From: a virus
DNA: 32,427 nucleotides
Strand: one strand, 5' to 3'
IMG/VR virus record: IMGVR_UViG_3300025418_000918
Coordinates: 1 to 32,427 of that record
Every line of letters starts with the position of its first letter. Within the stretch, counting starts at the first letter, position 1. Below, piece by piece: positions 757 through 29,756 of this stretch. The notes under the pieces are model-generated. The model saw nothing but the letters and a program-made list of their open reading frames with translations, was not told where the DNA came from and did no database searches. Made by a program: the position numbers and the translations under genes.

Positions 757-761
757 GATGA

Positions 762-9921: not shown

Positions 9922-9932
9922 ATAGTCCTTTT

Positions 9933-10628: not shown

Positions 10629-10635
10629 ATTATAT

Positions 10636-10664
10636 AGTTTAATGTGTTAGAACAAGAATGTCAA
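10636..10664 (-). promoter_or_regulatory. Candidate internal sigma70 promoter in the long operon
   Basis: In the gap 10629-10664, the largest inside the 27-kb operon, the minus strand has TTGACA (10664-10659), a 17-nt spacer, and TAAACT (10641-10636, 4 of 6 matches). The predicted start falls at or next to the ATG at 10628, so the transcript would be leaderless. The -35 is perfect and the -10 is weak. Confidence 0.4.
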
Positions 10665-11318: not shown

Positions 11319-11996
11319 TTATTTTTCTATGTCCATTAAATTTTTATTTGAAACAAAATCTACGTAAGCATATCTATTAAATGAATTTTTTACTTCTTCC
11401 ACTGAATGATGAATATTATGATGTTTAAAATCTAACATAACAAAAGTACCGCGAACTGGTGAAATTTCCTCATGTAGTTCACCGTCATCTATAATAAGTC
11501 GGCCACCGTCTTCTGCATTATAAGTGTCATTCAAATATATAAGAAAGACGCACAATCTGCCCGGATTGTTTCCGTCCCTATGCCTTTTAGAAAAATCCCC
11601 AGGTTCGTATAAAGTCAACATATCATTATGAAACATTTCAGCTGTTTCTAACTCTGGGTATATAGAAAGAATATATTCTGATATATATTTTCTAAAAGTT
11701 ATACACACAGCATAGACTTCACTACCGCCAAACTGCCACCATTTTTGATCCAATGCTAGATTCTTTTCTATTGTTTCCTGTCGTCTAGAATCGACTTCAT
11801 TAAATTTAAGACGAGGTTCGTAGGTGTTTCCTATTTGACCACTTATGCAATGCCAATAAATTCCATTTTTTTCTTTATCAATAGATAAACTTATTGTTTT
11901 ATCAATCAAAGAATCTACTATCTGATTATCGGGAATTATTTCATTCAAATTTCCTACATAATACCCTGTCTTTAAGTATTGTTCAACATCGATCAT
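11319..11996 (-). CDS. 2OG-Fe(II) dioxygenase (prolyl-hydroxylase-like), copy 2
   Basis: This is a 225-residue paralogue of its downstream neighbour. The iron site is H139-x-D141 in SKRHRDGNNPGRLC with H197 in NIHHSVEEV, and R208 is the probable 2-oxoglutarate anchor. FLIYLNDTYNAEDGGRLII is the conserved strand after the HxD. It starts in a 4-nt ATGA overlap with the upstream SDR and abuts copy 1 with no gap (TAA ATG). The N-terminal third differs from copy 1, which suggests the two act on different substrates or at successive sites. Confidence 0.85.
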   Translation of the reverse strand: MIDVEQYLKTGYYVGNLNEIIPDNQIVDSLIDKTISLSIDKEKNGIYWHCISGQIGNTYEPRLKFNEVDSRRQETIEKNLALDQKWWQFGGSEVYAVCITFRKYISEYILSIYPELETAEMFHNDMLTLYEPGDFSKRHRDGNNPGRLCVFLIYLNDTYNAEDGGRLIIDDGELHEEISPVRGTFVMLDFKHHNIHHSVEEVKNSFNRYAYVDFVSNKNLMDIEK

Positions 11997-14402: not shown

Positions 14403-15780
14403 AGTTTAATAGTTCTTGAAAGGGGTTATAGTTTTTAAAAGTATGTAGATGGTTCTGATTGTGTACAAGTACATCAGTAATAGAATGGTACCAATCATTT
14501 AACTGACCAATAGGTAGTTGAGCAATCTTTAATATTTCTTGTTTGATTAATGCAAATCTCTTTTTATGATCTTTTTCTAGATCGTAACTTTCGTCGATGA
14601 ATGGATGAAAAGTTTTAAATCCCAGTTGATGTAGTTTATTTAATGCGGCATAGTTACCCATGTAAATAAATGGCTGTAGGTTCAATATAGGTCTCCATGT
14701 CTTTTCAGAGAAGAATGGAGTTTCATCTTTATCAAAATCTGTTTCAGTTGTGATGTGTACATAACTGTATCGATAAAACTCTTTTTTATTACTGTATACA
14801 GGAAAGAATGTAAATCGCTGTTCGTCAGGCAAATGATCAGTATCTAAATGATAAGGTACGATACTAGCAATATCTTCTACCATTTCATCTGTGCCTTCCA
14901 TGACCCTGTTTAACATATCAACGGTATCATGTTTAACATCAAATAGGAAACTAAAAAACCCTTCCCGTAACAACTTATGTTCTATAGCCAGTTGACATAG
15001 GCCTATGCGGTGGGGGCGGCCCATTCTATTAAAACTTAAAAATCTTTTAGATCTAATAGAGTATCGACTAATATCACCGGGTTTAACATAATCACTAACA
15101 TAGTTTAGTCCTGTATCAAACGGATACTTATCCATAAGATTTGCTGTTTGATATAAGGCAATATCGCTACCTAATAGGGTCATGCTAGTTTTAATATCGT
15201 ATCTTACATTACCCTGTAAGCATACAATGTTACTACCTTTTATTCCTAGGTTCAATAGCAGTTTCTCCACATCTTCTAAAATAGATGGTTCGATAGAAGG
15301 ATCAATCATGTTAACCAATAATAGTTTAACACGACCTGTTTGGAGTAGTTCTAATATTTTAGGAGTTAATGAGTTCCCGATAGAATGACGGTATTCGGTA
15401 CCATCGACCATTATATCTGTTTCATTTAAAACAAACTGTACAGTATTACATTCTAACTCAATGGGATAATAGTAACTGCCATCTGTAACTTGATCTTCAC
15501 TTACTATATTATCTAACCCAAATGACTCTTTAAAATGATAAAAGAAGTTAGAGTTTCTAAAATAATATCCAGATTTAGGATTGTTATAGTAATAACAGTC
15601 ATCGATTTCTTTTATTCTTAGAAAATCGTCACTGTGCTGTAAATGATCGTTGATTATTTTATCCTGCATCCAGTTAACTAGTGCAGGATGTAATCCGTTA
15701 GCTAATGGGTATCTTATATTATCTATAGTATACCAGTTAGAATAAACTAACTTAAAAGGCGATCCACTTGCCTGAACCAT
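14383..15780 (-). CDS. Glycosyltransferase-like protein, paralogue 2
   Basis: This 465-residue protein is similar to its downstream neighbour over the whole length. It shares FKLVYSNWYT at the N-terminus, KRFLSFNRMGRPHRIGLCQL in the middle, and FFSEKTWRPILNLQPFIYMG (residues 356-375) followed by GFKTFHPFIDESYDL and DWYHSITDVLVHNQNH at the end. Membrane segments and a signal peptide are absent. Its start lies 29 nt inside the end of the TPP-enzyme gene. Tandem duplication is the likely origin. The two copies may add different sugars or act as a heterodimer. The glycosyltransferase label rests on the EK-type motif and on context. Confidence 0.6.
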   Translation of the reverse strand: MVQASGSPFKLVYSNWYTIDNIRYPLANGLHPALVNWMQDKIINDHLQHSDDFLRIKEIDDCYYYNNPKSGYYFRNSNFFYHFKESFGLDNIVSEDQVTDGSYYYPIELECNTVQFVLNETDIMVDGTEYRHSIGNSLTPKILELLQTGRVKLLLVNMIDPSIEPSILEDVEKLLLNLGIKGSNIVCLQGNVRYDIKTSMTLLGSDIALYQTANLMDKYPFDTGLNYVSDYVKPGDISRYSIRSKRFLSFNRMGRPHRIGLCQLAIEHKLLREGFFSFLFDVKHDTVDMLNRVMEGTDEMVEDIASIVPYHLDTDHLPDEQRFTFFPVYSNKKEFYRYSYVHITTETDFDKDETPFFSEKTWRPILNLQPFIYMGNYAALNKLHQLGFKTFHPFIDESYDLEKDHKKRFALIKQEILKIAQLPIGQLNDWYHSITDVLVHNQNHLHTFKNYNPFQELLNYESKQI

Positions 15781-16378
15781 AGTGCGGGTATTTTGATTTA
15801 TATTTGTAGTAGACTACATCTTCCGGAATATCGCGTTGCTTTTTCCAAGTTGCCTTAGTAGGTGTATAGGTTGATACTCCGTTGTCTTCTACAACAAAAT
15901 ACAATGGTAAATCAAAGTTTCTAGCATACTTGTGTGCTTCGTAAAAAGCACCAGTTTCAAAACTCATATCGCCGATAAAACACCATACCTTTTCGTCGCT
16001 GCCAGAGTCCTTGATACTTTTTGCCACACCCAGAGCAATAGCAATAGTAGAAGATACAATGGCGCTAGAATAAAAGTGTTCATCGATATTGCAGATAGTA
16101 ATGCTCTTACCAGCAAGGATTTCATCTTCTAGCCATACAGGGTCAATGCCTTTAAGCAATGCATGATAATGACTGCGCCAAGTAGAAAACACCCAGTCAG
16201 TGGCCTTAATGCGCTTAAAGATATCGATCAAGGGTTTTTCGTTGCCGTCCGACAAATGCACCGGGCCACGAATCTTGGCATCTTCCCAATGCTCCACAAT
16301 GCGTTGCTCGAACGCCTGTAGTTGTTCTACTGTATATCCGTGTTTACGGACAACGGGATATTGTTTTAAGTTTTTCAT
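15752..16378 (-). CDS. TPP-binding E1 alpha / transketolase-like protein, minimal
   Basis: This 208-residue protein has the thiamine-diphosphate signature G136-D137 in WCFIGDMSFETGAFYEAHKY, followed 29 residues on by N166 in FVVEDNGVST. STWRSHYHALLKGID (residues 65-79) matches E1 alpha. Normal E1 alpha is 320-360 residues. The partner pyrimidine half is at 3632-4168. I chose ATG 16378, which gives the ATGA overlap typical of this operon, over a TTG 39 nt upstream. The 5' part of the gene is far richer in GC (34 of 60 at 16261-16320) than the glycosyltransferase-like genes (16 of 60 at 14401-14460), which suggests separate acquisition. The likely role is sugar carboligation or ketol transfer. 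Confidence 0.78.
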   Translation of the reverse strand: MKNLKQYPVVRKHGYTVEQLQAFEQRIVEHWEDAKIRGPVHLSDGNEKPLIDIFKRIKATDWVFSTWRSHYHALLKGIDPVWLEDEILAGKSITICNIDEHFYSSAIVSSTIAIALGVAKSIKDSGSDEKVWCFIGDMSFETGAFYEAHKYARNFDLPLYFVVEDNGVSTYTPTKATWKKQRDIPEDVVYYKYKSKYPHYGSGKWIAF

Positions 16379-16914
16379 CTGTCTCTTTTTTGTAATATAG
16401 GAGTTGTGGTTGGCCAATCAATGTCAAAGGACTTCCAGTTAATAACACCTTGTTTGTTTTCATCAACATAGTCACCTTGATAAAACAAGTTGTAATGGAA
16501 GACACAGTCAGTTAACGCATAGTGTCCATTGGCAAACCCCGGAGGGACTAATACTTGATCGCGTGTTCGTTCACTGATAATATATGATTCCCATTTGCCA
16601 TAGTTAGCCGAATCGGGTCTAGCATCGAGTACAACTAGATAGATATCTCCTACTAATGCCTGTACAAGTTTCCAAGTTTTATCATCATAATGTAATCCAC
16701 GAAGCACACCCTGATATGACTTTGAAAATCTAACATGTGTATTGACATCGTTGGGCATTAATGCATTAACAGGATGTGCCGTGTTATGATATGTTGTAAA
16801 GATTTCGCCACGGTATTCTCTGTATACACTGGGAGTATACACAGGCACTTCATTACCAAATGTTTTTAGATAGGATGTGCTGAACTCATCCCATTTTTTA
16901 TCTTTATAACTCAT
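16375..16914 (-). CDS. rmlC: dTDP-4-dehydrorhamnose 3,5-epimerase family protein (RmlC-like)
   Basis: This 179-residue protein has the RmlC cupin core: GVLRGLHYD with the catalytic H75, KLVQALVGDIYLVVLDAR with K82, YGKWESY, VLVPPGFANGHYAL and GVINWKSFDIDWP. The family epimerises 4-keto-6-deoxy NDP-sugars at C3 and/or C5. RmlA, RmlB and RmlD are not recognisable here, so the substrate may come from the host or from one of the SDRs. It overlaps both neighbours by 4 nt (ATGA). The rmlC symbol marks the family; the true substrate may differ from dTDP-rhamnose intermediates. Confidence 0.85.
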   Translation of the reverse strand: MSYKDKKWDEFSTSYLKTFGNEVPVYTPSVYREYRGEIFTTYHNTAHPVNALMPNDVNTHVRFSKSYQGVLRGLHYDDKTWKLVQALVGDIYLVVLDARPDSANYGKWESYIISERTRDQVLVPPGFANGHYALTDCVFHYNLFYQGDYVDENKQGVINWKSFDIDWPTTTPILQKRDR

Positions 16915-19355
16915 CCTTTTACTACCCTATCAGAAAGATATCTAACCAATTCTTTACTATGGGCTTCATCTTTATAAATGCCCAATAGGTGATTACGATT
17001 ATGCACTAATATTTCTTCCATCTGCCAATACCATTTGTGTATTTCTTCTTTGCTCATAGAACAAATTCGTTTGATTTCAGCAAACATCATTCGCATACGA
17101 AGATCGTTGTCTAATACATTATCAAAACTTTCGTCAATCCAAGGATCAAATGTCCTAAACCCAATATTACGCAGTTCTGCTAATGCACCTGGGAAGGCAA
17201 TGAAAATAAAGGGATGGAAGTTGGCAATGGCCTTGAATACTTTTTCAGTAAACGATTTATATTCACCGTGTATGTATCCTTCGGAAGCAATATACAAGTA
17301 AGCATTTTTACTAGATTTACTGCCGTACTTGTCTCCCCAACCACTGGTATTATGATATCCTGCATCGGGTTCGTCCTGCATACGGTGTGGCAAAACTTCA
17401 TGTAATCGATCTATCACTGAGTTATCGCAATCAAATCCGTAGCTTTTAGACACATAATAGCCATAGTCTCTACCACGATAATCTAACATAGACCAATCAC
17501 CTAGATCTAACAAGTTTTCTTTAGCCATTTGGTAAATCATTGCCACTCTATGATCTCTGCTTCTTCTATTAGGAAACATAAAATGATTACGTCTTAGATA
17601 GTTTCTACTGTCATAGAACTGTTGTTCTGTTAGCCCCGAACCAGTTTTGTTTTTAAAGTGTGCAGATATATTAACCAACAGGAATGGCATGTTTTTAACT
17701 ATCATGCATCGTTCGTGTTCGGGGAACCAAGAGTTATATACTTGTTCTGCGTTAAAACTGTTGATAGATAGAACAATCTGTTCTTTAGGAATACCGCTAC
17801 GTTGTAGACCTCTGTGGAAGTCCTCAAACTCATAACGTTCAATACACGGCTCGTTGGCCCAATCTAAAAAGATAATAGCGTTCTTTTTACGAACATCTTC
17901 CAATGCCTGTGCAGACATATGTTTCCAAAAGTATTCGCCATTTAGTTTACTGCCTACATGATCGGTCCCTGTAAACTTACCAAAGTGCAAAGTCACTTTA
18001 ATAGGATAGATATATTTGTGATATCCATCTGCATGTAGAGTTTGATTTCCAAAGTATAAAGAGTTTTCATAGATATCTACTAGTTCTTTATAGGACCAAT
18101 GCCGTAAGTGAGATCCTCCCATACGTAGGCTATTAGGCCAATCTCCCATTTGATCACCAAACATTTGTTTCAATGGACTATTGGGAGAATCTAACTGTTC
18201 TTCGTAAAAACTTTCAGAACTAAGTCTATTTGAATAGAGTGTGTGCAAATAGTTTACAATGCCCATTTCTGGTGCCAGAGCGTTAGGCAATACAATATTA
18301 GGCATTACATAATCGTAAAAGAACGGTAATCTAGGTTTTTTTTCGACCACGGTTATTTGACTATTAGGTACTGGTACAGGCACTGGTGCTGAAACTAAAG
18401 TCTGTACTGGGGCAGGTGCAGGCACCGGAGTAGGGGCCGGAGTTGTATTAATAACTACTACAGGGGGTAGTTGATTAGAACTTCCTCGCATCTCTGTAGG
18501 AGGAGTGATCAAAGAGTATGGATCTATCGTTCTTTCCTGAGTAGGCACTGCTGGTGTATTAGCTACAATAGCCGGTAGTTGTATAGGTGATGGAACTTCG
18601 TTTGTAACAGAAGAAGGATAGGCTTTATAATAAAAATCCCGTAGTTTTTCTGCAAACAGTTTATGTGGTTCAGCACCGTGATGCCAAAACTCAGGACCTG
18701 CATTTCTATACCCTTCGTTTTTATATTTCCAATAAAAACTTTCTTTATTGTTCATAATGTCCATATAGACATCTTTATCAATTTGATTTATATAAAAGTT
18801 TAGATGTGGGCTTTCGCTGAACATCTCCATGGTATTGCACATCAAATACCTGATATTTTTAGTTTGTAAAAAATATTGTAGTTGTAGTACAAGGTTAGCA
18901 CTTGCTATTTCCATGTAAACAACATTCTTTGCTATAAATTCTTGGCATCCCGCAATAATAGTTTTTTCTTCTTCGTGGCCGCCTTTATACCCCATGTTAA
19001 CACGGAGGAAATCCATATCAACTTTTGATATATAATCGCTATAAGGATTCCATTTATCATACCAAATAGGTCTGTCAACAGGCACCTCCATTCGAAAACT
19101 CTCAGTCCATGCAACTAATATTTCCAAATCCATTTTTTCAGGATCGTAAAAAGTATTAACCCATTCAATAATGACACGGGTAATAGTTGCGTTGGTAGAT
19201 CCGTGAGATGCAATATTAAGTGCTTTACGGCCAATCTTTTCCGCAAATAGATTACCAAAAGAATTTTTTCTATTATATTCGCTGTCTTGAGTTCCGTCCA
19301 TTTCTGATCCGGATGCATGACTACAGCCTGCAATTAATAATAACTTTTCTTTCAT
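16911..19355 (-). CDS. Fusion protein: SGNH-like domain, Pro/Ala/Val linker, glycosyltransferase-like domain
   Basis: This is an 814-residue three-part protein. Residues 1 to about 247 start with LLLIAGCSHASGSEMDG (S12, block I) and contain HGSTNATI and WHHGAEPHKLFAEKL, matching an SGNH-type fold. Residues about 248-340 are a low-complexity linker rich in Pro, Ala and Val (for example VPAPAPVQ and APVPVPVP). Residues about 345-814 resemble the two glycosyltransferase-like proteins at 12984-15780, with FTEKVFKAIANFHPFIFIAF and IGFRTFDPWIDESF from residue 702. The fusion links acyl-ester chemistry to glycosyl transfer in one chain. It overlaps both neighbours by 4 nt. There is no signal peptide. 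The domain calls are motif-based. Confidence 0.65.
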   Translation of the reverse strand: MKEKLLLIAGCSHASGSEMDGTQDSEYNRKNSFGNLFAEKIGRKALNIASHGSTNATITRVIIEWVNTFYDPEKMDLEILVAWTESFRMEVPVDRPIWYDKWNPYSDYISKVDMDFLRVNMGYKGGHEEEKTIIAGCQEFIAKNVVYMEIASANLVLQLQYFLQTKNIRYLMCNTMEMFSESPHLNFYINQIDKDVYMDIMNNKESFYWKYKNEGYRNAGPEFWHHGAEPHKLFAEKLRDFYYKAYPSSVTNEVPSPIQLPAIVANTPAVPTQERTIDPYSLITPPTEMRGSSNQLPPVVVINTTPAPTPVPAPAPVQTLVSAPVPVPVPNSQITVVEKKPRLPFFYDYVMPNIVLPNALAPEMGIVNYLHTLYSNRLSSESFYEEQLDSPNSPLKQMFGDQMGDWPNSLRMGGSHLRHWSYKELVDIYENSLYFGNQTLHADGYHKYIYPIKVTLHFGKFTGTDHVGSKLNGEYFWKHMSAQALEDVRKKNAIIFLDWANEPCIERYEFEDFHRGLQRSGIPKEQIVLSINSFNAEQVYNSWFPEHERCMIVKNMPFLLVNISAHFKNKTGSGLTEQQFYDSRNYLRRNHFMFPNRRSRDHRVAMIYQMAKENLLDLGDWSMLDYRGRDYGYYVSKSYGFDCDNSVIDRLHEVLPHRMQDEPDAGYHNTSGWGDKYGSKSSKNAYLYIASEGYIHGEYKSFTEKVFKAIANFHPFIFIAFPGALAELRNIGFRTFDPWIDESFDNVLDNDLRMRMMFAEIKRICSMSKEEIHKWYWQMEEILVHNRNHLLGIYKDEAHSKELVRYLSDRVVKG

Positions 19356-21592
19356 ACTTTACTGCTTCTTTTTTTAATATTATCAAATACTATAGCATAT
19401 ACAGGAACTTCAGGACTAGAGGGAATTTCTTTAGTAGTTGATTTATCCGGTATGGCTACTTCATATTGTCTATAATCGCCCCAATCTCCCTCGCCTATAT
19501 ATCTATAGGTAAAGGAAAAATCAAGTTTATTAAATGTTGCTTCTTCATGAAGCATATGCGAAAAACTTCTATCACTTCTGCCAGTATCACCCCATTCTTC
19601 AGGCTTGGCTAGTTTACGTGCTCGTTTGGCAGTATTACTTTGCATACGACTAAAATCTTGTGCATAGAAAGGCCCGCGCCGAGGATCGTCCTCGTCTCTA
19701 TCATCATAGGGATTTTCAATTTGATTAAACTCATAATCAAAGTCTGCTTGCCAGCGTCCTTCATCTGTGATATCAAACTTAAATGTAGCGGTATACATAC
19801 CAGGACCAAACTGTCCACCGAACTCATTTTGATCAATATCTGGATTAAACTTAATCTTAGCAGAATATCCGCCTCTAGCACGCCATAACATTCTAAAGAA
19901 AGGCCACATTTCATTTACTAATGTGTCAGCAAATGGATTAATATCAGGTTTGATAATGTTGTAGTCAAACTTTTCATATCCCACTTCGCGCACTGTACTA
20001 GGATTATCTAACACAACCTTATAGTGATCTACTGCTAACTTATGACGTCGTGGATAACTAAAAGGAACTTCCACTGTGTCAATAATCATATCTAAGAATA
20101 TAGAAAATGCTTTGACACGGGTCATAACATGGGTACCGCCTAGCTTAAAGTCCTGTGTAATCCAATGATTTTGATACTTGTGATCACTTAGTCCAAACTT
20201 TTTAGGATTCTGTCCGATAATAGTTTCTGGTCCAAGACCAAAGCCAAATCCAGACCCTACATTATTGATATTCATGTTACGAACACGCCATAATAATGTC
20301 ATACTGTCGGCTGCATCTTGGAAATCTTCTGTAGGGAAACCCATGATCCAGTTAGTGGCAGCATAGATTCCTACTTCTTTGCCGTCACGGAAGTTCTGTT
20401 CCATTTCAGCAATAGTAACACCTTTGTCCATGTCATCTAATACTTTCTGACTACCACTTTCGATACCATAGTTCAGAATGATACAACCACCTGCTTTAAG
20501 GTCTTTGAAGTATTCAAGATCCATGCGGCCGTCGCAACGAGCATAACCAGTCCAATGAATCTTTAAGTCTTTGGCCACAACAGCCTTACAGAACGCACGT
20601 AGTTCTTTTAGGTTACCATTAACTAAACTGTCAATGAACCAAATAATGTCTGTGCCTTTGTTGTAGTACAGCCATTCTACTTCGGTGATAAGGTCCACAG
20701 CCTGACGCTGACGATACTTCCAAAAGTGTGTTTCTTCACAGAATGTACATTTAGCAGTACAGCCACGACTAATCTCACTGTTAACACCGTTAGGCAACTT
20801 ATACTGATTGAAGTCAATACTTTCATAATCAGGCATAGGTAAGCCATTGATATTGATACGTTGATCTTCAGGCTGTGTTACATACTTTGGTCCTTTGAGA
20901 ACAACACCGTTTTCTACTTCATCTAAAATCTCTAACAGTACTTGCTCACCCTCTCCGTTGACAACATAGTCAAAGTAATCCTCAATCTCGAACCAGCCCT
21001 TTTGTACATTACTACCACCGATAGCGATTCTAATGTTAGGATTACGGCGTTTGAGTTCCTTACACATCCATTTAGTAGGAAGCTCATTGATATTGTATAC
21101 ACTAAATCCTATAATGTCAGCACCATATTCTTCAAGCTCATCACAGGCTTTCATTAACAACGGTTCAAGCACAGGATGAATGTGTTCATAATATGTACTG
21201 CCAGTCCAATGCCAGATAGCACTAGGATCCCACAACGGAAATGGTATTAATTTTCTAGGGCGCCAGATTTTTTGATATTCATTATAAGCACGAATATTCA
21301 AATCTTTAATAACTGTTTCGTAGCCTGCACTTTTGGCAACACCACTAAGTCGAGCTAGATTAAACGGAGGCATGTCAGGTGCCCACTCGGGACACATTAC
21401 CAATGCTAGTTTTGTTTTGCGTGTTTTGTAATCGATATAAACAGGAGTAACGTTTTTTTGCTCTGTTTTTTTAGCATAAGGTGCAATAGCATCCATCATG
21501 GCACGATGTCGTGCATCTGCGAGATCCTCAGGAGGCTGTTCTCGCGGACCAATATCTTTTCTTGCTAACTGTGTTAAATTGAAATCAATCAA
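19352..21592 (-). CDS. Radical SAM protein with N-terminal B12-binding-like domain
   Basis: This is a 746-residue protein. Residues about 60-225 look like the cobalamin-binding-type domain of B12-radical SAM enzymes (LALVMCPEWAPDMPPFNLAR, GADIIGFSVYN, IAIGGSN, VVNGEGEQVLLEIL), without a DxHxxG motif. The radical SAM core has C278-x3-C282-x2-C285 in SRGCTAKCTFC, then IIWFIDSLVNGN and LNYGIESGSQKVLDDM. About 280 C-terminal residues are unassigned. The start is TTG 21592, directly after the stop of the upstream gene, with AGAAGG upstream. Members catalyse methylations, C-S bond formation and rearrangements. The substrate here is unknown. Confidence 0.85.
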   Translation of the reverse strand: MIDFNLTQLARKDIGPREQPPEDLADARHRAMMDAIAPYAKKTEQKNVTPVYIDYKTRKTKLALVMCPEWAPDMPPFNLARLSGVAKSAGYETVIKDLNIRAYNEYQKIWRPRKLIPFPLWDPSAIWHWTGSTYYEHIHPVLEPLLMKACDELEEYGADIIGFSVYNINELPTKWMCKELKRRNPNIRIAIGGSNVQKGWFEIEDYFDYVVNGEGEQVLLEILDEVENGVVLKGPKYVTQPEDQRININGLPMPDYESIDFNQYKLPNGVNSEISRGCTAKCTFCEETHFWKYRQRQAVDLITEVEWLYYNKGTDIIWFIDSLVNGNLKELRAFCKAVVAKDLKIHWTGYARCDGRMDLEYFKDLKAGGCIILNYGIESGSQKVLDDMDKGVTIAEMEQNFRDGKEVGIYAATNWIMGFPTEDFQDAADSMTLLWRVRNMNINNVGSGFGFGLGPETIIGQNPKKFGLSDHKYQNHWITQDFKLGGTHVMTRVKAFSIFLDMIIDTVEVPFSYPRRHKLAVDHYKVVLDNPSTVREVGYEKFDYNIIKPDINPFADTLVNEMWPFFRMLWRARGGYSAKIKFNPDIDQNEFGGQFGPGMYTATFKFDITDEGRWQADFDYEFNQIENPYDDRDEDDPRRGPFYAQDFSRMQSNTAKRARKLAKPEEWGDTGRSDRSFSHMLHEEATFNKLDFSFTYRYIGEGDWGDYRQYEVAIPDKSTTKEIPSSPEVPVYAIVFDNIKKRSSKV

Positions 21593-22639
21593 TTAATCTA
21601 CCTTCTTTTTAGTTCTAGTTTTTTTAGGTTTAACAGGTTCTTCGGCAACAACTGGTATAACAGGAATAACTTTGCGATCGGGGTTATGTTTGGGAATAAT
21701 AATATCTGTACCGCAATGGCAGTGTTCTTTTTCGCAGGTAATCACTTTAGGACCAATCTCAGCAATATCTCTTAGAATATTACCGCCATAACCGCCTTCA
21801 CCACAACTAGCTAGTCCAATATCTCCCATAGGATTGATAAACAAGCTATCGCCTACATTACAGCGCCAGCCTTTGAAAAAGTTCTGTCTATTAATAATAA
21901 CATCATTGCTATTAGTATACAACTCTTCTCCATCCTCATGAATAGAATAACTTACACAGTTATCCGGAGTAGTGGGTTTAGGTAGTGTAAACTTCATATC
22001 CACCGAATGTGTTTTTAAGAAATCTACTTTTTTCTTGCTACGATACTTCCAAGGACTAGCATAGATTGTCATCTCATCAAACAACGGAGTCCATTCAATA
22101 AAGTAGTTAGGCATAACTTTTTTCAAGTGTTCGCCGTATTCAACAACTTCCCAAAAGCGTTCATCATGCATCAACATCTTTGTGGCAAGATAGTTTACCT
22201 TGTCACATAAGAAGATACTATTCTTTTCGTATTCTTCTTTGTTACTAAACTCCACATGATAACTAGCAACAATATCATCAAACAAATGATAATGTTTCTT
22301 CCACCAAGCCAATGGGCGACTTAGATTAGTGTTTACTGCTAATGTACAGTTAGGCAGTTCACGCTTCAACCATTCGCATACAGGAATAAAGTTACGCCAT
22401 GCTGTAGGTTCTCCTCCACTAAAGAAGAACTTAAAGTGTTCATAACCTTCTTCCTTGTAACGATTAATAATAGTTTCAAGGTTAGTTAGGTACTTGGTCA
22501 AGTTACCATTATTGGTTTCAGTACCACTCCAGTTGCCTGGATTACAATAACTACATTTAAAGTTACAGTAGTTGTTAACTTGCCAAGTGACTGCAAGGTA
22601 TTTTTGTTTCCCTACAATCTCGATTATTTCTTTGCCCAT
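21593..22639 (-). CDS. Radical SAM protein with C-terminal Cys-rich region
   Basis: This 348-residue protein has the cluster motif C25-x3-C29-x2-C32 in NNYCNFKCSYCNPG near the N-terminus and FFFSGGEPTAW as the SAM-binding GGE motif. A C-terminal Cys-rich region (WRCNVGDSLFINPMGDIGLA, then CEKEHCHCG) looks like a SPASM or twitch auxiliary-cluster segment. The protein ends in a Pro/Lys-rich tail. It differs from the N-terminally SPASM-like neighbours, so it probably does a different step. It overlaps the upstream radical SAM gene by 16 nt. Confidence 0.85.
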   Translation of the reverse strand: MGKEIIEIVGKQKYLAVTWQVNNYCNFKCSYCNPGNWSGTETNNGNLTKYLTNLETIINRYKEEGYEHFKFFFSGGEPTAWRNFIPVCEWLKRELPNCTLAVNTNLSRPLAWWKKHYHLFDDIVASYHVEFSNKEEYEKNSIFLCDKVNYLATKMLMHDERFWEVVEYGEHLKKVMPNYFIEWTPLFDEMTIYASPWKYRSKKKVDFLKTHSVDMKFTLPKPTTPDNCVSYSIHEDGEELYTNSNDVIINRQNFFKGWRCNVGDSLFINPMGDIGLASCGEGGYGGNILRDIAEIGPKVITCEKEHCHCGTDIIIPKHNPDRKVIPVIPVVAEEPVKPKKTRTKKKVD

Positions 22640-23919
22640 TGATAGACCTCTTTTAATTCTGGAACAACGTCCAATAACTTTTCTTTTCTATTAACATCCA
22701 TTTCATTATTATGGAAAATGAATTCTAATATACCGCCTTTGTCCTCATGACTGACATGATCACCGTATCTATGACTGCCTGCTTTTAAGTTCTGTTGTAT
22801 AAGTTTAAACCCATTTGCAATGCCGGGCAAGTGTTCATACTTCCTAACATGCATTTCATACGTTTTGATTAACTTTTCTTTAATATGGTCTGGCAATATA
22901 AAGATATTGGCCCACCAAGGATGTGTAAGCAAGTTAAATCTAGGATCAACTTTTTTACTAATCAACTCATTGTCATATAGATAATCAAAGAACTCAGGGA
23001 AGGACCAAACATTCCATGTACTGATCGTAGGACTAATCTGGAACTCTGCATGTGGAACTTCTTTCTTTAGTTTTTTCATGTTCTTAACAATGGTATCCCA
23101 TTTGGTACCTTTGCGTACAAGTTCAGCAACATCGCCACTGGCATCGAGACTTGCCCAAATCTTGATGTTGGGAAACTTCTTCCACAACTCAATCAAGTTT
23201 CTATCTTTGTATTTCAATACACTAAAGTTAGTAGTATATGTTAGTTCAACCTTATGGGTCAGACCTTTTTCAATCCAATAATCTAAACATTCATAATGCT
23301 CGGGTGTAATAATAGCTTCTCCACCTGCAAAGTAAACTTCTTCAACGTGATCGAGATAGGGTTTTAGTTTAGTCATAAACACTTGGTCTTCGTTGGTATT
23401 AACAACAAATGATTTTAATCCAAAGTATTTTTCTAACTTATCATGCCCTTTAGTCTTAGCGTATTCTTCTGCCCATTGACTACTACAAGCAGGTCCACAT
23501 GTACGACATTTCATGTTACATAGGTTACTAAAACGAATGTCCATATACTTCATTTTAAACTCGTCAATGCTGCCGTCTTTCTTAGTCTTACTAATAAGAT
23601 CAACATAGTCAAGTCCCCTACGGGTATTATGACTATTACGCATAGTCCAAGCACCTAGTTGTTCTACGCTGGTGCAACGGAAACAAGTTTCAAGCGGCTG
23701 ATCTTTTAACATAGCCACACGCATCTTTTTGTACTCGTCACTATTCATCATTTGAATAATAGATTCTTCTGATTTAATCTTAGACACTGGCTTAGAGCTA
23801 TCTGCCATACAGCAGGGCATAACATCCCCATTAGGGAACGAATGGAAGTGTATCCAAGGTAGAACACAAAAGTTCTTGCCTTCTTTGATCAGTTTAGTTA
23901 CATGTGCTTTTGTTACCAT
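22624..23919 (-). CDS. Radical SAM protein with N-terminal SPASM/twitch-like domain, paralogue 1
   Basis: This is a 431-residue protein. An N-terminal Cys domain (C18 in NFCVLPWIHFHSFPNGD, C36-C37, C79 and C82) resembles SPASM/twitch auxiliary-cluster domains, which normally lie after the radical SAM core. The core follows: DIRFSNLCNMKCRTCGPACS with C134-x3-C138-x2-C141, and VYFAGGEAII as the GGE motif. It is homologous to the next two genes over its whole length. The twitch-type family is seen in uncultured phages and is of unknown substrate. The order of domains suggests a peptide- or glycan-modifying enzyme, but that is inference. It is separated by 1 nt from the upstream gene. Confidence 0.87.
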   Translation of the reverse strand: MVTKAHVTKLIKEGKNFCVLPWIHFHSFPNGDVMPCCMADSSKPVSKIKSEESIIQMMNSDEYKKMRVAMLKDQPLETCFRCTSVEQLGAWTMRNSHNTRRGLDYVDLISKTKKDGSIDEFKMKYMDIRFSNLCNMKCRTCGPACSSQWAEEYAKTKGHDKLEKYFGLKSFVVNTNEDQVFMTKLKPYLDHVEEVYFAGGEAIITPEHYECLDYWIEKGLTHKVELTYTTNFSVLKYKDRNLIELWKKFPNIKIWASLDASGDVAELVRKGTKWDTIVKNMKKLKKEVPHAEFQISPTISTWNVWSFPEFFDYLYDNELISKKVDPRFNLLTHPWWANIFILPDHIKEKLIKTYEMHVRKYEHLPGIANGFKLIQQNLKAGSHRYGDHVSHEDKGGILEFIFHNNEMDVNRKEKLLDVVPELKEVYQWAKK

Positions 23920-23920
23920 A

Positions 23921-25165
23921 TTAATCCATCATTGAAGCAAGTTCGGGAAATACTTTGGTAAAGTCTTCGCCGCGGACTTTGTCTAATACTGCAATCTCTT
24001 CTTGGAACTTGGCTTTATTATCTGCCCAGGTATGTTGAGCATTTGCCCAAGCCATAGTAGATTCTACCACAGGCAGTTTATAATCGAGGAATCCCTTGCT
24101 TTGCATAAACTTTACCAACGATTTAATCTTAAATGTAGCTTCACGTTTAAGTTTAGCTGGCATTACTTGAGATGTAAAATGTGTCGGTGATGTCATATTA
24201 TAGATACCAAATGTTGTGTAACTCCAAGAGGTATAGATTTTCTTTTCAATCAAGTAATGATAGAATTCTAACATAGTATGATAGTTAAACACACTACATA
24301 CAGTATTTAGACCAAATCTAACATTATCCATTGAGCTGAGTTTGATAAGGTTCTTTTCTACCTGTCCCCAATCAGTGCCATGTCTAATATACTCAGCACG
24401 TTCACCGTGATGATCAATACTGGCTTCTAGAGAAATAGGTTTGGTAAAATGACTCCATAACTCAATAATATCCTTGTTCTTAAACTTCAAGTTACTGACA
24501 TTTGAGTTGTATACAAGATTAATATCTGTACGACCTTGTTTAATCATTTCTTCTAGAACAATATAATGTTCTTCGGTAATCAACGGTTCACCACCAGCAA
24601 AATACGCATACTCCATATGTGGAATATGTTCAATGACTTCTTCCAATAGTTGAGGAGTATTGTTCTTAGGGTGAATAGTAGCCCAAGGTACTTTACGTTT
24701 GATATCTTCCTGTTCCCATAATGTACTAAATGCCGCATTACAAGTTCTACATTTAAAGTTACATACGTTATTAAAACGCACATCAAAATATCGCATTTTA
24801 AAGTCAGCAAGAGTGCCATCTTCTAGCGTATTAGCCATAGCTTCATCAAAGTGATGTTTAAATCGTTTAGCAAACTGATCTTTACTAGAACTAATACCCT
24901 GCGCCTGATGTTCATGACAACCAGCACATGCGGGATTAAAACGTTCGTTCAGCATATCCAAACGTAGTTGTTTCATCTTATCACCATTGATGATAGACTC
25001 AATAGTTTGTTCTGTTGTATTCCCCACAACATCCCTAGCAATACAACAGGCTGCTGCTTCTCCTACTGGAGATGTGTATAGGTGAATCCAGGGAGACATA
25101 CAAAATGTCTTGCTTTCATTTAAAAGAAAGTCTTTATTTACAGTTACAGTTTTTTGTTTTTTCAC
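23921..25165 (-). CDS. Radical SAM protein with N-terminal SPASM/twitch-like domain, paralogue 2
   Basis: This 414-residue protein has the same architecture as its neighbours. Auxiliary cysteines are C22 (FCMSPWIHLYTSPVGE), C40-C41, C80 and C83. The radical SAM motif is C135-x3-C139-x2-C142 in FNNVCNFKCRTC, and YAYFAGGEPLITEEHY holds the GGE. It is closest to the 25162-26415 product, sharing IEHIPHMEYAYFAGG-like, DHHGERAEYIRHGT and SVFNYHTMLEFY segments. It overlaps that gene by 4 nt. Duplication followed by divergence is likely. The substrate is unknown. Confidence 0.87.
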   Translation of the reverse strand: MKKQKTVTVNKDFLLNESKTFCMSPWIHLYTSPVGEAAACCIARDVVGNTTEQTIESIINGDKMKQLRLDMLNERFNPACAGCHEHQAQGISSSKDQFAKRFKHHFDEAMANTLEDGTLADFKMRYFDVRFNNVCNFKCRTCNAAFSTLWEQEDIKRKVPWATIHPKNNTPQLLEEVIEHIPHMEYAYFAGGEPLITEEHYIVLEEMIKQGRTDINLVYNSNVSNLKFKNKDIIELWSHFTKPISLEASIDHHGERAEYIRHGTDWGQVEKNLIKLSSMDNVRFGLNTVCSVFNYHTMLEFYHYLIEKKIYTSWSYTTFGIYNMTSPTHFTSQVMPAKLKREATFKIKSLVKFMQSKGFLDYKLPVVESTMAWANAQHTWADNKAKFQEEIAVLDKVRGEDFTKVFPELASMMD

Positions 25166-26415
25166 TTTGGTTCCATCAATGGGTATAGTTCTGGGAATGT
25201 TCTAACAAATGATTCCCCTCGTACTCTGTCACGCTCTTTAGTATGATGTATGAATTCTTTTCTAGCCGTTTTCCAGTTATCTTCACTGTTAACAAAAGGA
25301 ATAGCCAAATCTAAGTATTGTTTTACAATATGTCCATTTTGCAAGGTTGGAGCATATTTCATTATCTTTTCTGTTCCAATATCTTTTAAATGTCTAGGCA
25401 ATGCAGTAGCAGTATAATATGGCGGATGTGTAGTCATAGACAAATAAGTTTGATAATCCTCTTGTCTAATCAAATCTTTATCTAACATATAACTATAGAA
25501 ATCAGTTATTGTTAGATAGTTAAACACACTCAATACTGTGGCTACTCCTAACTTTACATTATCTAGTTTTCTAAAGTTAATCAAGTTACTTTCAACTACG
25601 CCCCATTCGGTTCCATGTCTAATGTATTCAGCACGTTCTCCGTAATGGTCAACGCTTACCTGTAGCTCAATCTTTTTAAAGTTCTTCCAAAGATCTAATA
25701 AGTCTTTATTCTTATAGTTAATAGTACTACCATTTGTGTTATAACGCAACATTACATCTGTTCGACCCCGACGAATCATTTCTTCAAGGATAATGTAATG
25801 TTCGTCCATGATCAATGGTTCGCCACCAGCAAAGTAAAGAATGTCTGCGTGATCTAAATGTGTTTTTACTTCTTCAATCAGTGTGCCTTTATGATTGTCT
25901 GCATGGATAGTGACCCAGTCTTCCAGGCCCAGTTTCTTTTGTTCAGCGGCCCATTTACTACTAAAGTCAGCACCACAAGTTCTGCAAGCAAAGTTACAGA
26001 TATTACTGAATCTAATATCAATAAGATGTAGTTTAAACTCATCCAAAGATCCATCTTCATTGGTATTAGGTACTAACTCATCAAACCGTTTTCCAAAATG
26101 ATCTTTGCCAAATGTTCTGTAAGTGTGAGGACTGATTTTTTCACGGTCGTAACACATTTTACAGCAGTCCGAAGGAACATCATTTAACATATCTAATCTC
26201 AGCTTCTTAGCAGCATCACTGTTAAAGATTTCCTTTAGGGAGTTTTCTCTAACATTCCCTAACTGTAAAGATCTATCAGTGGTACAGCATGGAAACACTT
26301 CACCGCCGGGACTTACAAAAAGATGCATCCAAGGAAGCATACAAAATGTCTTACTGTCCTCCATTAGATAATCTTTGTTAATCGGTATTACTTTATTCAT
26401 ATTCACTACATTCAT
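25162..26415 (-). CDS. Radical SAM protein with N-terminal SPASM/twitch-like domain, paralogue 3
   Basis: This is a 417-residue protein. The auxiliary cysteines are C25 (FCMLPWMHLFVSPGGE), C43-C44, C84-C85 and C88. GNVRENSLKEIF between them is the typical SPASM spacer. The core has C140-x3-C144-x2-C147 in SNICNFACRTC and LYFAGGEPLIMDEHY. An ATG at 26400 (MNKVIPINKDYL) aligns better with the paralogue's N-terminus and may be the true start. With 26415 the gene overlaps the upstream one by 23 nt, and with 26400 by 8 nt. It shares DHYGERAEYIRHGTEWG with paralogue 2. Confidence 0.87.
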   Translation of the reverse strand: MNVVNMNKVIPINKDYLMEDSKTFCMLPWMHLFVSPGGEVFPCCTTDRSLQLGNVRENSLKEIFNSDAAKKLRLDMLNDVPSDCCKMCYDREKISPHTYRTFGKDHFGKRFDELVPNTNEDGSLDEFKLHLIDIRFSNICNFACRTCGADFSSKWAAEQKKLGLEDWVTIHADNHKGTLIEEVKTHLDHADILYFAGGEPLIMDEHYIILEEMIRRGRTDVMLRYNTNGSTINYKNKDLLDLWKNFKKIELQVSVDHYGERAEYIRHGTEWGVVESNLINFRKLDNVKLGVATVLSVFNYLTITDFYSYMLDKDLIRQEDYQTYLSMTTHPPYYTATALPRHLKDIGTEKIMKYAPTLQNGHIVKQYLDLAIPFVNSEDNWKTARKEFIHHTKERDRVRGESFVRTFPELYPLMEPK

Positions 26416-27775
26416 TATAAAAATCTGTCATCTCGGGGAACGTTTCCAAAAAGTTTGTGTCCCTGCGTTCATCTAACGCATTAAACCAGTTATAAAAATC
26501 CTTGCGACCTTCTGCGACGCGAGCATCATCATATGTTGTTGATTCCATATAATCAACGACACGTCTAAACTTTTCATATTCAAAAGTTGTAAACTTTGCC
26601 AAATCGTTTTCGTCTGTGTTGTCTTTCATAAACTTTAACGACTCGTGCATGTAAGGCAAAAACTCTGTCTTGGGCAATATATTCATATCATACTGCAATG
26701 GTTCTTTGAGATAGGGTGTATCAAATCTAACCATTTGCGGTTGATCAGTTCTATTGTACTGATTATACTTGGCACGCCATTCTAAGATCTTTTCCAATAG
26801 GCTCTTGAATGTTGTCACACACAAGATATTAAACGTAATCATAAAACTGATCGGCTGTCCAGTACCTATTAGGTACGCATCGAGGTTGCGTTCCCAAATG
26901 GACAAATCTAATCCTGTTCGAATATATTCTGCTCGTGGGCCCCATGTATCAATGCTAGTAAACAACTTAAATCTACGGATTCCTTTGTTGTCTGTAACAT
27001 AGTTTACACTATCAATCATCTTATCTACCAATGCTGGTTTGACACCAATATTGCTATTGATATTTAATTCTAATTGAGGCATGGGGTCATTTTTCAGGCT
27101 ATCAAACAGTTTCCAAGTACTGGTATGCATCAATGGTTCCCCACCAGTAACTCGTAGAATGTTCAGTGTCTTACTCATTTCAGGCCACCAACGCCACCAA
27201 GCATCCACAAATGGATTACTTTCTTCACGCTCGTAGATCTTTAGGTAATCGATATCACAACGATGATTGCTCACTGTTTCTACAGGACCGTGCTGTTTAA
27301 TCTCGTTGTAGAAACGACTGCTGGCTTTGGGGTGGCAATAGCCGCATTTGAAGTTACATTCATTACCGAACGATACTTCAATATATTCTGGGTTGATGTT
27401 CTTATTGTATGAACCTGTAGTTGCTTCTTCCCACCGAGAAGGAGTATAGATGGATGTTGTTCTAATGTGGCGGTCACTGATGTAACCTTCGCCCATATTT
27501 TCAATATTCCAGCAGTATTGGCAACCTTTGGTTTGTACGCCCAATAACATATCCCTACGCTCTAACTTTTTAATAGGAGTATTGTGCAGGGCGCTGGGAT
27601 TACGTCTAATCTCTTCTTTGTTTATCTTGTGTGGAGGCGGGTGATAACAACTGTGTGTTTCACCTGTTTGTAGGTACAAGGTAGTATGATGCCATTTAGC
27701 CAAACAAAATGTTGGACTAACTTTGTTCATAATGGGTATGAGTTTTCTAACTTTCTTCTCGTCCGAATCTGACAT
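26393..27775 (-). CDS. Radical SAM protein, divergent twitch-type member
   Basis: This 460-residue protein carries a shortened auxiliary set (C24 in TFCLAKWHHTTLYLQTGE, C43, C85 and C88), then the core C140-x3-C144-x2-C147 in GNECNFKCGYCHPKASSRF, and ILRVTGGEPLMH as the GGE motif. The segment DTWGPRAEYIRTGLDLSIWE corresponds to DHYGERAEYIRHGT of the neighbours. It is the first radical SAM gene of the operon and overlaps the glycosyltransferase gene upstream by 29 nt. The distinct CGYC and WHH motifs suggest a separate substrate. Confidence 0.86.
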   Translation of the reverse strand: MSDSDEKKVRKLIPIMNKVSPTFCLAKWHHTTLYLQTGETHSCYHPPPHKINKEEIRRNPSALHNTPIKKLERRDMLLGVQTKGCQYCWNIENMGEGYISDRHIRTTSIYTPSRWEEATTGSYNKNINPEYIEVSFGNECNFKCGYCHPKASSRFYNEIKQHGPVETVSNHRCDIDYLKIYEREESNPFVDAWWRWWPEMSKTLNILRVTGGEPLMHTSTWKLFDSLKNDPMPQLELNINSNIGVKPALVDKMIDSVNYVTDNKGIRRFKLFTSIDTWGPRAEYIRTGLDLSIWERNLDAYLIGTGQPISFMITFNILCVTTFKSLLEKILEWRAKYNQYNRTDQPQMVRFDTPYLKEPLQYDMNILPKTEFLPYMHESLKFMKDNTDENDLAKFTTFEYEKFRRVVDYMESTTYDDARVAEGRKDFYNWFNALDERRDTNFLETFPEMTDFYNECSEYE

Positions 27776-29756
27776 TATATTCCTTTAATAACCATTCTTC
27801 GTCATTGATATTCTTTAGTTGATCAGGACGAGCATTATCTATAAACTCTCTAGCATGTTGAGCACCTAGCTGTGCATACTCACCAAATGGTTTATTTGAA
27901 CCTTTTGTAAGCCAATCATTGTATCTTTCTTCATGTTCAGAGTTATCTGAATCATAGACCATGTTATAGCATAACTTAACACATTCTCTAAAGGCACTGC
28001 GCCAAGTAGCATACTCACTGGTATTAAAACGGGTTGTGTTACTAACTTCTTCTATGACTTTGAGTTTTTTAGTCACAGTAGTAGAAAAGTCTAATGTAGT
28101 CCAAGTTTTACGATGTAATACATAAGCACGTGGTAATAGTTTAACACCGCCATTGCCATAAGTCAAACCATTGATAGGATTACGACTGTGCCAAATATAA
28201 GCACAGTCTCTATCAAAGATGCCTGGCTGGAAGTTAAACGACCAATCGTCTTCCAAATATGCATCACCGTCTACTACAAAGAACATGTCTGTTTCACATA
28301 GTTCGGCGGCGGCTTTATGTGCAGCCATGATACCTTTGACTCCATCTACTCGTTGTGCATATGGAGCAAACTCTAAAACTCTTTGCCAGTTTTCTTCTGC
28401 ATTGTCTTCGTTGTAACTGATAAACACCACATCGAGTGGTTCAAACAATGGAGTAACAATACCCATTTCCTTTGTACCTGCGGGATTATCAACTAGACTC
28501 ATGGTCAATGCCCATACATTGTCTTGATTCCATTCTGGATCAAGATACCAAACATGCTTGAAGTCTTTGTCGTGATAAGGAATGTTGTAGTCAACTTCCA
28601 TTTCCAATCTAGGCAACTTGGGATTCTTTTGAATGTTGACTGCGGGAAATACTGTGCCCACATACTTGTCGCCTTTGGGTTTATCCACATAGGAGCCAGT
28701 AACAGCAACTATGTCATAGCCTGTACTAGTAACTGTATCCAGTTTCCAACAATGCCTATATTCAAACTCTTTATGATGTGCTACATGTTCTTCTATGCCT
28801 TCAAACTGCATTCCTTCTAGATCAGGATGTAGTTCGTAGGTCATTATGGGACTAACATAGTCAACAATAATCCGTTGTTTGGTTTTGGCTGATGCTTTTA
28901 TCTTAAATGCCCAAATCTCTTTTTCTTCAGTCTTTTTATGTTTGTTGTCTAACATCCAAACATGTTCGTAATTTAAGTTATCCCACGACACAGAATAACT
29001 AACATCATAGTCTAACTTTGGAAGTTTAGGATTGTATTCGATTATGAGTTCAGGACTCACCGTACCCACAACTTTGGCAGGCATGGGCTTTCTATATTCG
29101 GGAGTAAACTTTACGGCCCAAACATCCCCGTCTGTATTATATTCTGGATCTAGATTGTAAACACATTCATAGGCCAAATCCCAATAGGGAGGGCATAGTT
29201 CATCTATGTTTAGATTGAAGTCTGGAAGGTCTGGGTTAAATGACACTTTGACATTTGGGGTTAGATCCTCCATTACATGTGTGCCTTTAACTGCTATACC
29301 GGAAGGTATGCATTTGTACACCCATACACGATCTTCTAGTGGATTGAACCTAGTATCCATATACCAAACTAGTTCTCGTTGCCTGTGCCATGTACCAGGA
29401 TCGTAGGTGTTTACTGGATCATCGACAAAAGTCATCATGCGATCTAGATCTGGATTCTTACGCCAAATCAGCTTGGGCTTTTCCAATATGATTTCTTCAT
29501 AGCCATCACTGGGTTTCCAATAGCTATTAAAACATTTGGCAATCCACTCTCCGTCCATGCCCCAAACTATACATTTGTCAGATGCAGGAACATTATGAAT
29601 ATAGTGATGTAGATCCGGATCTACTAGCCAAGGGTTGATAACTAGAAAACGCTCTTCATCGCATAGTTGTTGTAGCTCAAGGTCATAGGCAACAGGGTCG
29701 CCTTGCCATTTTATCTTTTTAACCAGTTCGGGATCTACTCTGTAAATGTCTGCCAT
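27747..29756 (-). CDS. GT-A-like glycosyltransferase with five N-terminal tandem repeats
   Basis: This is a 669-residue protein. Residues about 100-440 hold five repeats with a period of 66-70 residues, each marked by a VW-x-[LM]-D-like anchor ending at residues 134, 203, 270, 340 and 406, with NP-x-LP elements between. A C-terminal GT-A-like domain starts near residue 441 (LDVVFISYNEDNAEENWQRV) and contains the metal/nucleotide DxD-type motif D496-G-D498 in FFVVDGDAYLEDDWSF. It is the first gene of the long operon, with a strong promoter whose -10 lies 9 nt before the ATG, and no Shine-Dalgarno. The repeats may bind the acceptor, for example the adjacent virion protein. Confidence 0.75.
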   Translation of the reverse strand: MADIYRVDPELVKKIKWQGDPVAYDLELQQLCDEERFLVINPWLVDPDLHHYIHNVPASDKCIVWGMDGEWIAKCFNSYWKPSDGYEEIILEKPKLIWRKNPDLDRMMTFVDDPVNTYDPGTWHRQRELVWYMDTRFNPLEDRVWVYKCIPSGIAVKGTHVMEDLTPNVKVSFNPDLPDFNLNIDELCPPYWDLAYECVYNLDPEYNTDGDVWAVKFTPEYRKPMPAKVVGTVSPELIIEYNPKLPKLDYDVSYSVSWDNLNYEHVWMLDNKHKKTEEKEIWAFKIKASAKTKQRIIVDYVSPIMTYELHPDLEGMQFEGIEEHVAHHKEFEYRHCWKLDTVTSTGYDIVAVTGSYVDKPKGDKYVGTVFPAVNIQKNPKLPRLEMEVDYNIPYHDKDFKHVWYLDPEWNQDNVWALTMSLVDNPAGTKEMGIVTPLFEPLDVVFISYNEDNAEENWQRVLEFAPYAQRVDGVKGIMAAHKAAAELCETDMFFVVDGDAYLEDDWSFNFQPGIFDRDCAYIWHSRNPINGLTYGNGGVKLLPRAYVLHRKTWTTLDFSTTVTKKLKVIEEVSNTTRFNTSEYATWRSAFRECVKLCYNMVYDSDNSEHEERYNDWLTKGSNKPFGEYAQLGAQHAREFIDNARPDQLKNINDEEWLLKEYNVRFGREES
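28437..29459 (-). repeat. Five protein-level tandem repeats (about 68 residues each)
   Basis: The repeats are encoded within the glycosyltransferase gene, residues about 100-440. Anchors VWYMD, VYNLD, VWMLD, CWKLD and VWYLD end at residues 134, 203, 270, 340 and 406, giving steps of 69, 67, 70 and 66. DNA identity between copies is low, so these are old repeats. Confidence 0.7.

Follow-up and report, generated by a model that had tools for sequence, protein, structure and literature searches.

An array of six radical SAM genes recurs beside glycosyltransferase-like and fibre-like genes in uncultured phages

Six radical S-adenosylmethionine (SAM) open reading frames (ORFs) lie side by side, almost without gaps, on the minus strand at 19352-27775 of a 32,427-base stretch (hereafter, the window) of IMG/VR virus record IMGVR_UViG_3300025418_000918, which comes from an uncultured virus of bacteria. 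Much the same set of genes is found in numerous records of uncultured phages, with the order largely kept. Its neighbours in the window are a fibre-like gene and a gene for a 669-aa protein at one end, and a gene for an 814-aa protein at the other. We put at about even the chance that the enzymes of this array tailor an unusual sugar of phage fibres or of the host surface.

Composition and family assignment of the array

Four of the genes, named by protein length, encode radical SAM proteins with an N-terminal auxiliary cluster: tw460 (26393-27775), tw417 (25162-26415), tw414 (23921-25165; GTG start), a paralogue close to tw417, and tw431 (22624-23919). Next to tw431 is rs348 (21593-22639), a short radical SAM gene with a C-terminal cysteine region, followed by B12 (19352-21592; TTG start), which encodes a 746-aa B12-binding radical SAM protein with a long C-terminal part whose role is unassigned. 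The first-pass annotation, made from the sequence alone, had described six adjacent radical SAM genes carrying the CxxxCxxC motif, and this motif was indeed read in each of the six ORFs. The same annotation had called the genes overlapping, which is true of three of the five junctions (23, 4 and 16 bp), whereas one junction is abutting and one has a 1-bp gap.

In profile searches, four of the six proteins exceeded the 170-bit cut-off of NF033640 (NCBIfam N_Twi_rSAM, twitch domain-containing radical SAM protein) over nearly their full length: tw431 (367 bits), tw414 (354.8 bits), tw417 (381 bits) and tw460 (297 bits). The name of this family gives no reaction, and its members in the window form an ordered phage array. 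No match above this cut-off was found in 14 control genomes, all of which gave weak matches. The rs348 protein reached 37 bits on NF033640, a weak match to the core only, and 28.7 bits on PF04055, just below the cut-off of 29.5, so that the search returned four NF033640 members, one B12-binding radical SAM protein and one radical SAM protein near the cut-off. The B12 protein exceeded the cut-offs of both PF04055 (59.2 bits) and PF02310 (38.6 bits), in agreement with the B12-binding-like gene of the first-pass annotation, and methyl transfer is its predicted activity. Among the twitch proteins, tw417 was the only one above the PF04055 cut-off (36.2 bits, versus 24.9 for tw431, 28.6 for tw414 and 21.1 for tw460) and also exceeded that of PF13186; SPASM-like domains were found above cut-off in tw417, tw414 and tw431.

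The cysteines that had been assigned to auxiliary clusters were well conserved. In 107 non-redundant sequences from loci L007-L091 (the prefix L denotes the loci that we compared), C25, C44, C85, C88, C140, C144 and C147 were kept at ≥90% in each of the four twitch groups. The auxiliary-cluster pattern was present in 28/28 tw417, 16/16 tw414, 37/38 tw431 and 25/25 tw460 non-redundant sequences, and a C-terminal cysteine pattern in 32 of the 37 non-redundant relatives of rs348, the gene for which the first-pass annotation had noted a C-terminal Cys-rich region.

Conservation and distribution of the array

Related loci were collected from IMG/VR with the B12 protein (best 80 of 187 related stretches, 58-100% identity) and with tw417 (76 relatives in 75 loci). 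Exceptions to the common gene order, with B12 ahead of the twitch genes, were seen in a few loci (e.g. L034, L035, L044 and L056). A second group of loci (L092-L160) carries two tw460-like genes, one tw431-like gene and about two tw417-like genes, and several phages have a single gene where the window has both tw417 and tw414. The CxxxCxxC motif was intact in every twitch-type ORF of 330 aa or more (498 of 498) and in every B12 ORF of 600 aa or more (83 of 83); this set is redundant and includes the window.

When 306 deduplicated sequences were placed in a tree, they grouped by gene and not by phage, as judged by tip order. In a second tree, the tw460, tw431 and tw414 genes of L007-L091 each formed a clade (support 0.97-1.0), and each of these clades also took in a single gene of a metagenome bin, located on a phage-like contig. 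Specifically, tw460 formed its own clade (support 0.999), and the tw414 clade was nested in the smallest clade holding tw417. Mean identity was 20-41% between twitch groups, compared with 48-64% within them. The ratio of nonsynonymous to synonymous substitution rates (dN/dS), calculated from nine locus pairs picked by eye, was 0.014-0.092 in the 29 of 41 six-gene comparisons with finite dS; these values are rough, because only those 29 were finite and many dS values exceeded 1. The array genes thus appear to be under purifying selection.

The array is not a chance pile-up, because its orthologues recur, mostly in the same order, their cysteines are intact and they appear to be under purifying selection. 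Recent unrelated insertions and broken radical SAM cores, the two findings that the first-pass annotation had listed as refuting its reading, can be ruled out: orthologues and gene order recur across loci and the trees sort by gene, and CxxxCxxC is intact in every twitch-type and B12 ORF counted.

We also examined 25 larger records chosen for holding relatives (24 from IMG/VR and Vibrio phage K566), and each of them contained 4-13 NF033640 matches (E 0.001). The T4-type major capsid gene gp23 was found in 15 of these 25 records and not in the 99-kb contig of the window's virus, all such records being fragments. In a collection of 50,697 phage records, relatives of tw417 were found in four records and relatives of tw460 in none (E 1e-5 for both); a relative of the tw431 gene of the second group was found in two records, and distant relatives occur in Vibrio phages K566, which has several copies, and K567. 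The gene density described as unusual for a virus is therefore unusual in this collection, but not among the uncultured relatives. A near-identity search with window positions 17001-32000 gave no match in the phage records, and neither did searches for relatives of the GT-A and fibre-like genes of L131.

In many loci, the main B12 gene has upstream of it a member of a second B12-like family, of about 640 aa (e.g. L084:4946-6874 and L051:4130-6061); this family scores about 22-47 bits against the window's B12 protein.

Cellular relatives

For cellular relatives of the twitch family, we used the best 80 of 159, located in 79 loci, of which 58 held a single copy in the fetched stretch and seven resembled phage contigs. 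In three Bdellovibrionota loci (L190, L202 and L212), a relative of tw431 was directly followed by a relative of rs348 (280-297 bits), then by a third radical SAM-like gene; the rs348 relative of L212 (L212:11244-12275) was above the PF04055 cut-off (32.7 bits). Bdellovibrionota genes were the closest cellular genes to tw431. In the lineage tree, which covers the twitch genes and leaves out rs348, genes of L212 and L202 first joined phage genes in a clade with tw431 (support 0.945), as did L190 (0.828); one L190 gene grouped with tw460 (0.932) and another with the second group's tw460-like genes (0.999). We infer that tw431 and tw460 had probably diverged before genes passed between phages and bacteria, and that the split of tw414 from tw417 is more recent.

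The densest cellular cluster, in a Bdellovibrionota genome (G027:C1:745513-774880; L256-L257), comprised 13 NF033640 genes above cut-off within 29 kb, with 33 matches genome-wide. This cluster is interspersed with Asp/Asn hydroxylase-family and amidinotransferase-like genes, and looks like a biosynthetic cluster. The neighbours of Bdellovibrionota clusters included carbamoyltransferases, Asp/Asn hydroxylase-family genes, a 2-oxoglutarate (2OG) oxygenase and a nucleotidyltransferase.

No close cellular relative of B12 was confirmed among 71 candidate stretches retrieved with two short peptide patterns. Distant B12 radical SAM proteins were present in five cellular loci (46-109 bits) and in L264 (64 bits), so the description of B12 as virus-only holds for close relatives alone. 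The GHILD motif, considered as a link between cellular and phage genes, was discarded, as it is present in no viral locus.

Genes associated with the array

The 669-aa protein (27747..29756, minus strand) combines N-terminal beta repeats with a C-terminal domain of GT-A fold (approximately residues 438-582). Its model had a predicted local distance difference test score (pLDDT) of 88.8 and a predicted template modelling score (pTM) of 0.46. In a Foldseek search, glycosyltransferases came top, the best match being SunS (E 1.7e-4), followed by GtrB, WrtF and ThuS. The fold is also common to nucleotidyltransferases, and in the VIA comparison a glycosyltransferase tied with a nucleotidyltransferase (Z 11.2 over 132-133 residues). 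The protein had no Pfam or NCBIfam match, hence no known glycosyltransferase family; from its modelled fold, it is likely a glycosyltransferase. The length of the beta-repeat stretch ahead of the GT-A domain varied between phages from none to several hundred residues (alignment A4).

In 87 loci, the GT-A gene was found within three genes of the array on its 5' side, and seven more loci held both in another arrangement. Among the 79 loci with upstream sequence, 62 had a fibre-like gene at most three genes 5' of the GT-A gene. The neighbourhood comparison in viral metagenomes that had been proposed as a check thus showed that the set recurs with GT-A and fibre-like genes. In the window, the fibre-like gene (29805..32162, minus strand) encodes a repetitive 785-aa protein with choice-of-anchor/ASH-like repeat matches below cut-off and no PHROG match; it may be structural and is a possible carrier of the modification. 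It matched the fibre-like family of the second group weakly (E 0.0006, with a bias of 48 bits against a score of 10), and we did not equate the two, this biased match being the sole basis for doing so. The second-group family itself had no Pfam or PHROG match and contained 0-4 cysteines per protein (39 members); its role is presumed to be structural because the neighbouring gene L131:974-2599 matches virion structural and tail fibre PHROGs.

On the other side of the array, the C-terminal part of the 814-aa protein (16911..19355, minus strand) aligned with two related proteins of 472 and 465 aa (12984..15780, minus strand; alignment A6, 22% identity). The 814-aa protein had no NCBIfam, Pfam, PHROG or PDB match, nor did the 472- and 465-aa proteins match Pfam, PHROG or PDB; the former may have a role in glycan metabolism and the latter are putative glycan enzymes. 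Of 80 B12 loci, 58 were non-redundant and 44 had enough flanking sequence. Among these 44 loci, we found a gt814/gt465-type gene in 43, a twitch gene in 31 (at least three in 22), rs348 in 29, an epimerase-type gene in 28 and a GT-A gene in 25; four of the 13 loci with no twitch gene in the flank (L020, L061, L069 and L075) carried twitch genes elsewhere in the record. In the non-redundant loci of at least 18 kb from the tw417 set (n = 34), at least four twitch genes were present in 34 and a GT-A gene in 31.

Of 154 viral loci, 98 had a carbamoyltransferase gene (Pfam confirmed two representatives), and DegT aminotransferases were present in other viral loci. The name amidinotransferase-like was given from a reading of the sequence, and neither representative matches Pfam. 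In the single-cell marine contig MH319727.1 (Marine virus AG-345-D19), a carbamoyltransferase match directly precedes a twitch match (5919-7950).

Structure of tw417 and comparison with solved folds

The model of tw417 was good (pLDDT 89.9, pTM 0.86). Its nearest solved folds were anSME (Z 11.3, root-mean-square deviation 4.2, 220 aligned residues) and BlsE (11.2, 4.2 and 216), nearly tied with MoaA (10.5, 4.3 and 218) and viperin (10.2, 4.4 and 201). Among predicted viral proteins, the best match was an unstudied protein of an uncultured phage (TM 0.89 of the query, 29% identity). BtrN, an aminocyclitol dehydrogenase, was not among the 50 fold matches listed, and was the only PDB profile match covering the auxiliary domain of tw417 (E 0.0011). 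For B12, the PDB profile matches were MgmA, TokK, CysS and apramycin oxidoreductase 4.

Other genes of the window and of the 99-kb contig

Several further genes on the minus strand of the window are related to sugar metabolism or to iron-sulfur (Fe-S) clusters. An RmlC-type deoxythymidine diphosphate (dTDP)-sugar epimerase is encoded at 16375..16914 (PF00908, 103.1 bits), and nucleotide-sugar epimerase/dehydratase genes, two 2OG-Fe(II) oxygenases and a methyltransferase-like gene at 8021..12979 (PF01370 and PF13640 above cut-off, PF05175 just below; 8953-9921 assigned by reading of the sequence). Genes for an A-type carrier, an A-type-like protein (765-1091, assigned by reading only) and an IscU-type scaffold lie at 427..1443 (PF01521 and PF01592 above cut-off); these Fe-S assembly genes are on the strand of the array and could provide the radical SAM enzymes with clusters. 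A thiamine-diphosphate enzyme was found in two halves about 11.6 kb apart, which align to separate stretches of a single PHROG family: the first at 15752..16417 (PF00676 above cut-off; phrog_34187 positions 3-199 of 405) and the second at 3632..4168 (PF02779 above cut-off; positions 237-401 of 405).

On the virus's 99-kb contig, the array comes after the 785-aa fibre-like gene, and several long genes lie about 21-44 kb downstream, past sugar, Fe-S and other genes. Of these long genes, one has collagen repeats and another, located some 24 kb downstream (L163:255-3278), matches tail fibre PHROGs. The contig also encodes a Gram-negative outer-membrane porin (L165:4739-5692; PF13609, 91.6 bits), which could alter the surface of the infected cell or hint at the host, a ClpX-like ATPase with a zinc finger (L165:8208-9446; Pfam) and AhpC (L165:2860-3913; Pfam), followed by an AhpD-like gene identified by eye.

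Possible function of the array

If the array acts on sugars, it would be the chemical core of a glycan-tailoring cassette located in a fibre region of large phages, which in many cases are of T4 type. Nucleotide-sugar enzymes would make a sugar, on which tw460, tw417/tw414, and tw431 with rs348 may carry out different C-H chemistry (oxidation, epimerisation or deoxygenation), and to which B12 may add a methyl or similar group. Glycosyltransferases would then attach the product to the fibre or to a host surface polysaccharide, with altered adsorption or the exclusion of competing phages as a possible outcome; the phage's Fe-S assembly genes may feed the enzymes. We counted in favour of this reading the GT-A gene 5' of the array, the sugar genes of the window, the carbamoyltransferase and DegT genes of other loci, the recurrence of gt814/gt465-type, twitch and epimerase-type genes, and the presence of at least four twitch genes and a GT-A gene in loci of the tw417 set. 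The Bdellovibrionota twitch clusters near carbamoyltransferases and a nucleotidyltransferase, the BtrN match, the downstream tail fibre gene and purifying selection were counted likewise.

Several results weigh against sugar tailoring, whose product and substrate are predicted from genomic context. No carbamoyltransferase, DegT, amidinotransferase-like or PIG-L gene was found in the window or its 99-kb contig, and carbamoyltransferase was also found in 145 records of cultured or catalogued phages, the majority of them cyanophages; its common occurrence there, together with its absence from the contig, rules it out as a specific partner. The gt465/472/814 family could not be named, as it matched nothing in Pfam, PHROG or PDB. 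The fold of tw417 ties a peptide/protein enzyme, anSME, with a sugar enzyme, BlsE, and because of this tie the structure prediction proposed in the first-pass annotation, which did yield a good model, cannot decide between sugar and peptide. The core of tw417 matched the peptide enzyme SkfB and viperin by profile, and its lesser NCBIfam matches were mostly peptide maturases, far below cut-off (DynA, 39.3 bits; WgkB, 38.7 bits). For B12, the best solved profile match, MgmA, is titled methyl-coenzyme M reductase glutamine methylase, and the top NCBIfam match was a C-methyltransferase of ribosomally synthesised and post-translationally modified peptides (RiPPs; 97.3 bits, cut-off 281.85).

These peptide-enzyme matches lead to the main rival, which we judge unlikely: the array would modify a virion protein itself, by crosslinking, epimerising or methylating fibre residues in the manner of peptide natural products. 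Such a role is consistent with the fibre-like gene close upstream of the GT-A gene in most loci, anSME among the best Z scores of tw417, MgmA and the RiPP C-methyltransferase as nearest matches of B12, the SPASM-like domains, and the Asp/Asn hydroxylase-family genes of the Bdellovibrionota clusters. However, the Pfam scan listed no PqqD/RRE-type domain for the six proteins, the fibre-like family is poor in cysteine, the window's fibre gene matches that family only weakly while the enzymes are conserved, and the neighbourhood is rich in sugar enzymes. Adjacency to fibre-like genes also argues against action on a lipid of the host or some other small molecule with no link to the virion, a form of host reprogramming that would suit cellular relatives standing mostly alone (one copy in the fetched stretch of 57 of the 72 loci without a GT-A gene); we regard it as improbable. 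Viperin-like or counter-defence nucleotide chemistry appears very improbable. Five of the six proteins gave weak matches to prokaryotic viperins and B12 matched the candidate defence family PDC-M51A (33.9 bits), but those viperin matches are limited to the core (22.9-36.1 bits for the best of each protein), and on the NCBIfam viperin model five of the six scored 20.5-31.7 bits, far below its cut-off of 180.

It could also be that the genes are tandem copies of a single enzyme, retained for dosage and not for separate steps. Only 12 positions were conserved within the four twitch groups yet differed between them, 11 of which single out tw460, and tw414 falls within the smallest clade holding tw417. 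On the other hand, tw431 and tw460 each have their own closest cellular genes, and identity between groups is well below that within groups, and we hold dosage for the whole array to be quite unlikely. The first-pass annotation had taken the enzymes to differ enough in motifs to suggest successive steps on one product or one step on several sites. The difference stands for tw460, tw431, the tw417/tw414 pair, rs348 and B12, but may not hold between tw417 and tw414. Since these two look like a later duplication, with tw414 nested with tw417 and a single gene in several phages, they may run one reaction twice, and successive steps are only partly supported.

Returning to sugar tailoring, a broader proposal, which we find rather doubtful, is that large phages keep a long-held pathway in which five or six different radical SAM enzymes would build a new, multiply edited fibre sugar, with a B12 family closely seen only in viruses and twitch enzymes that share Bdellovibrionota ancestry.

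Relation to known systems and significance

A high density of radical SAM genes in phages is already published (PMC5332604, PMC7029224). In the parts of these papers available to us, a T4-like marine virus of 183 kb carries 12 radical SAM genes and an Fe-S carrier gene (PMC5332604), and pelagimyophages carry radical SAM cassettes with glycosyltransferases in the fibre region, within host-recognition islands (PMC7029224). The window's virus resembles the former in combining many radical SAM genes with an Fe-S carrier gene; the available text of that report treats them as Fe-S metabolism and does not take up gene order, a glycosyltransferase partner or a B12 enzyme. The contig of the window's virus resembles the host-recognition cluster of pelagimyophages in joining a fibre region with glycosyltransferase-like and radical SAM genes, but those phages infect SAR11, their freshwater members are reported to be without radical SAM genes, and the accessible text does not dissect the enzymes. 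The Bdellovibrionota clusters share with the phage array the tw431-rs348 pair, the tw460 relatives and, in some cases, a nearby carbamoyltransferase; they differ in being cellular, in holding up to 13 NF033640 genes above cut-off in 29 kb and in having only distant B12 radical SAM proteins. Our literature search, which covered titles, the beginnings of abstracts and few subscription papers, found no such array beyond the two reports cited.

In those reports, as far as their accessible parts go, phage radical SAM genes were counted and treated as Fe-S genes or as island cassettes (PMC5332604, PMC7029224). What is new here is that conserved, separately inherited enzyme groups are tied to a fibre-like and glycosyltransferase-like locus, which makes for a testable pathway. 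If the array does make a new sugar, it would partly explain the variable host-recognition islands that large phages carry, and would yield a set of uncharacterised enzymes for assay.

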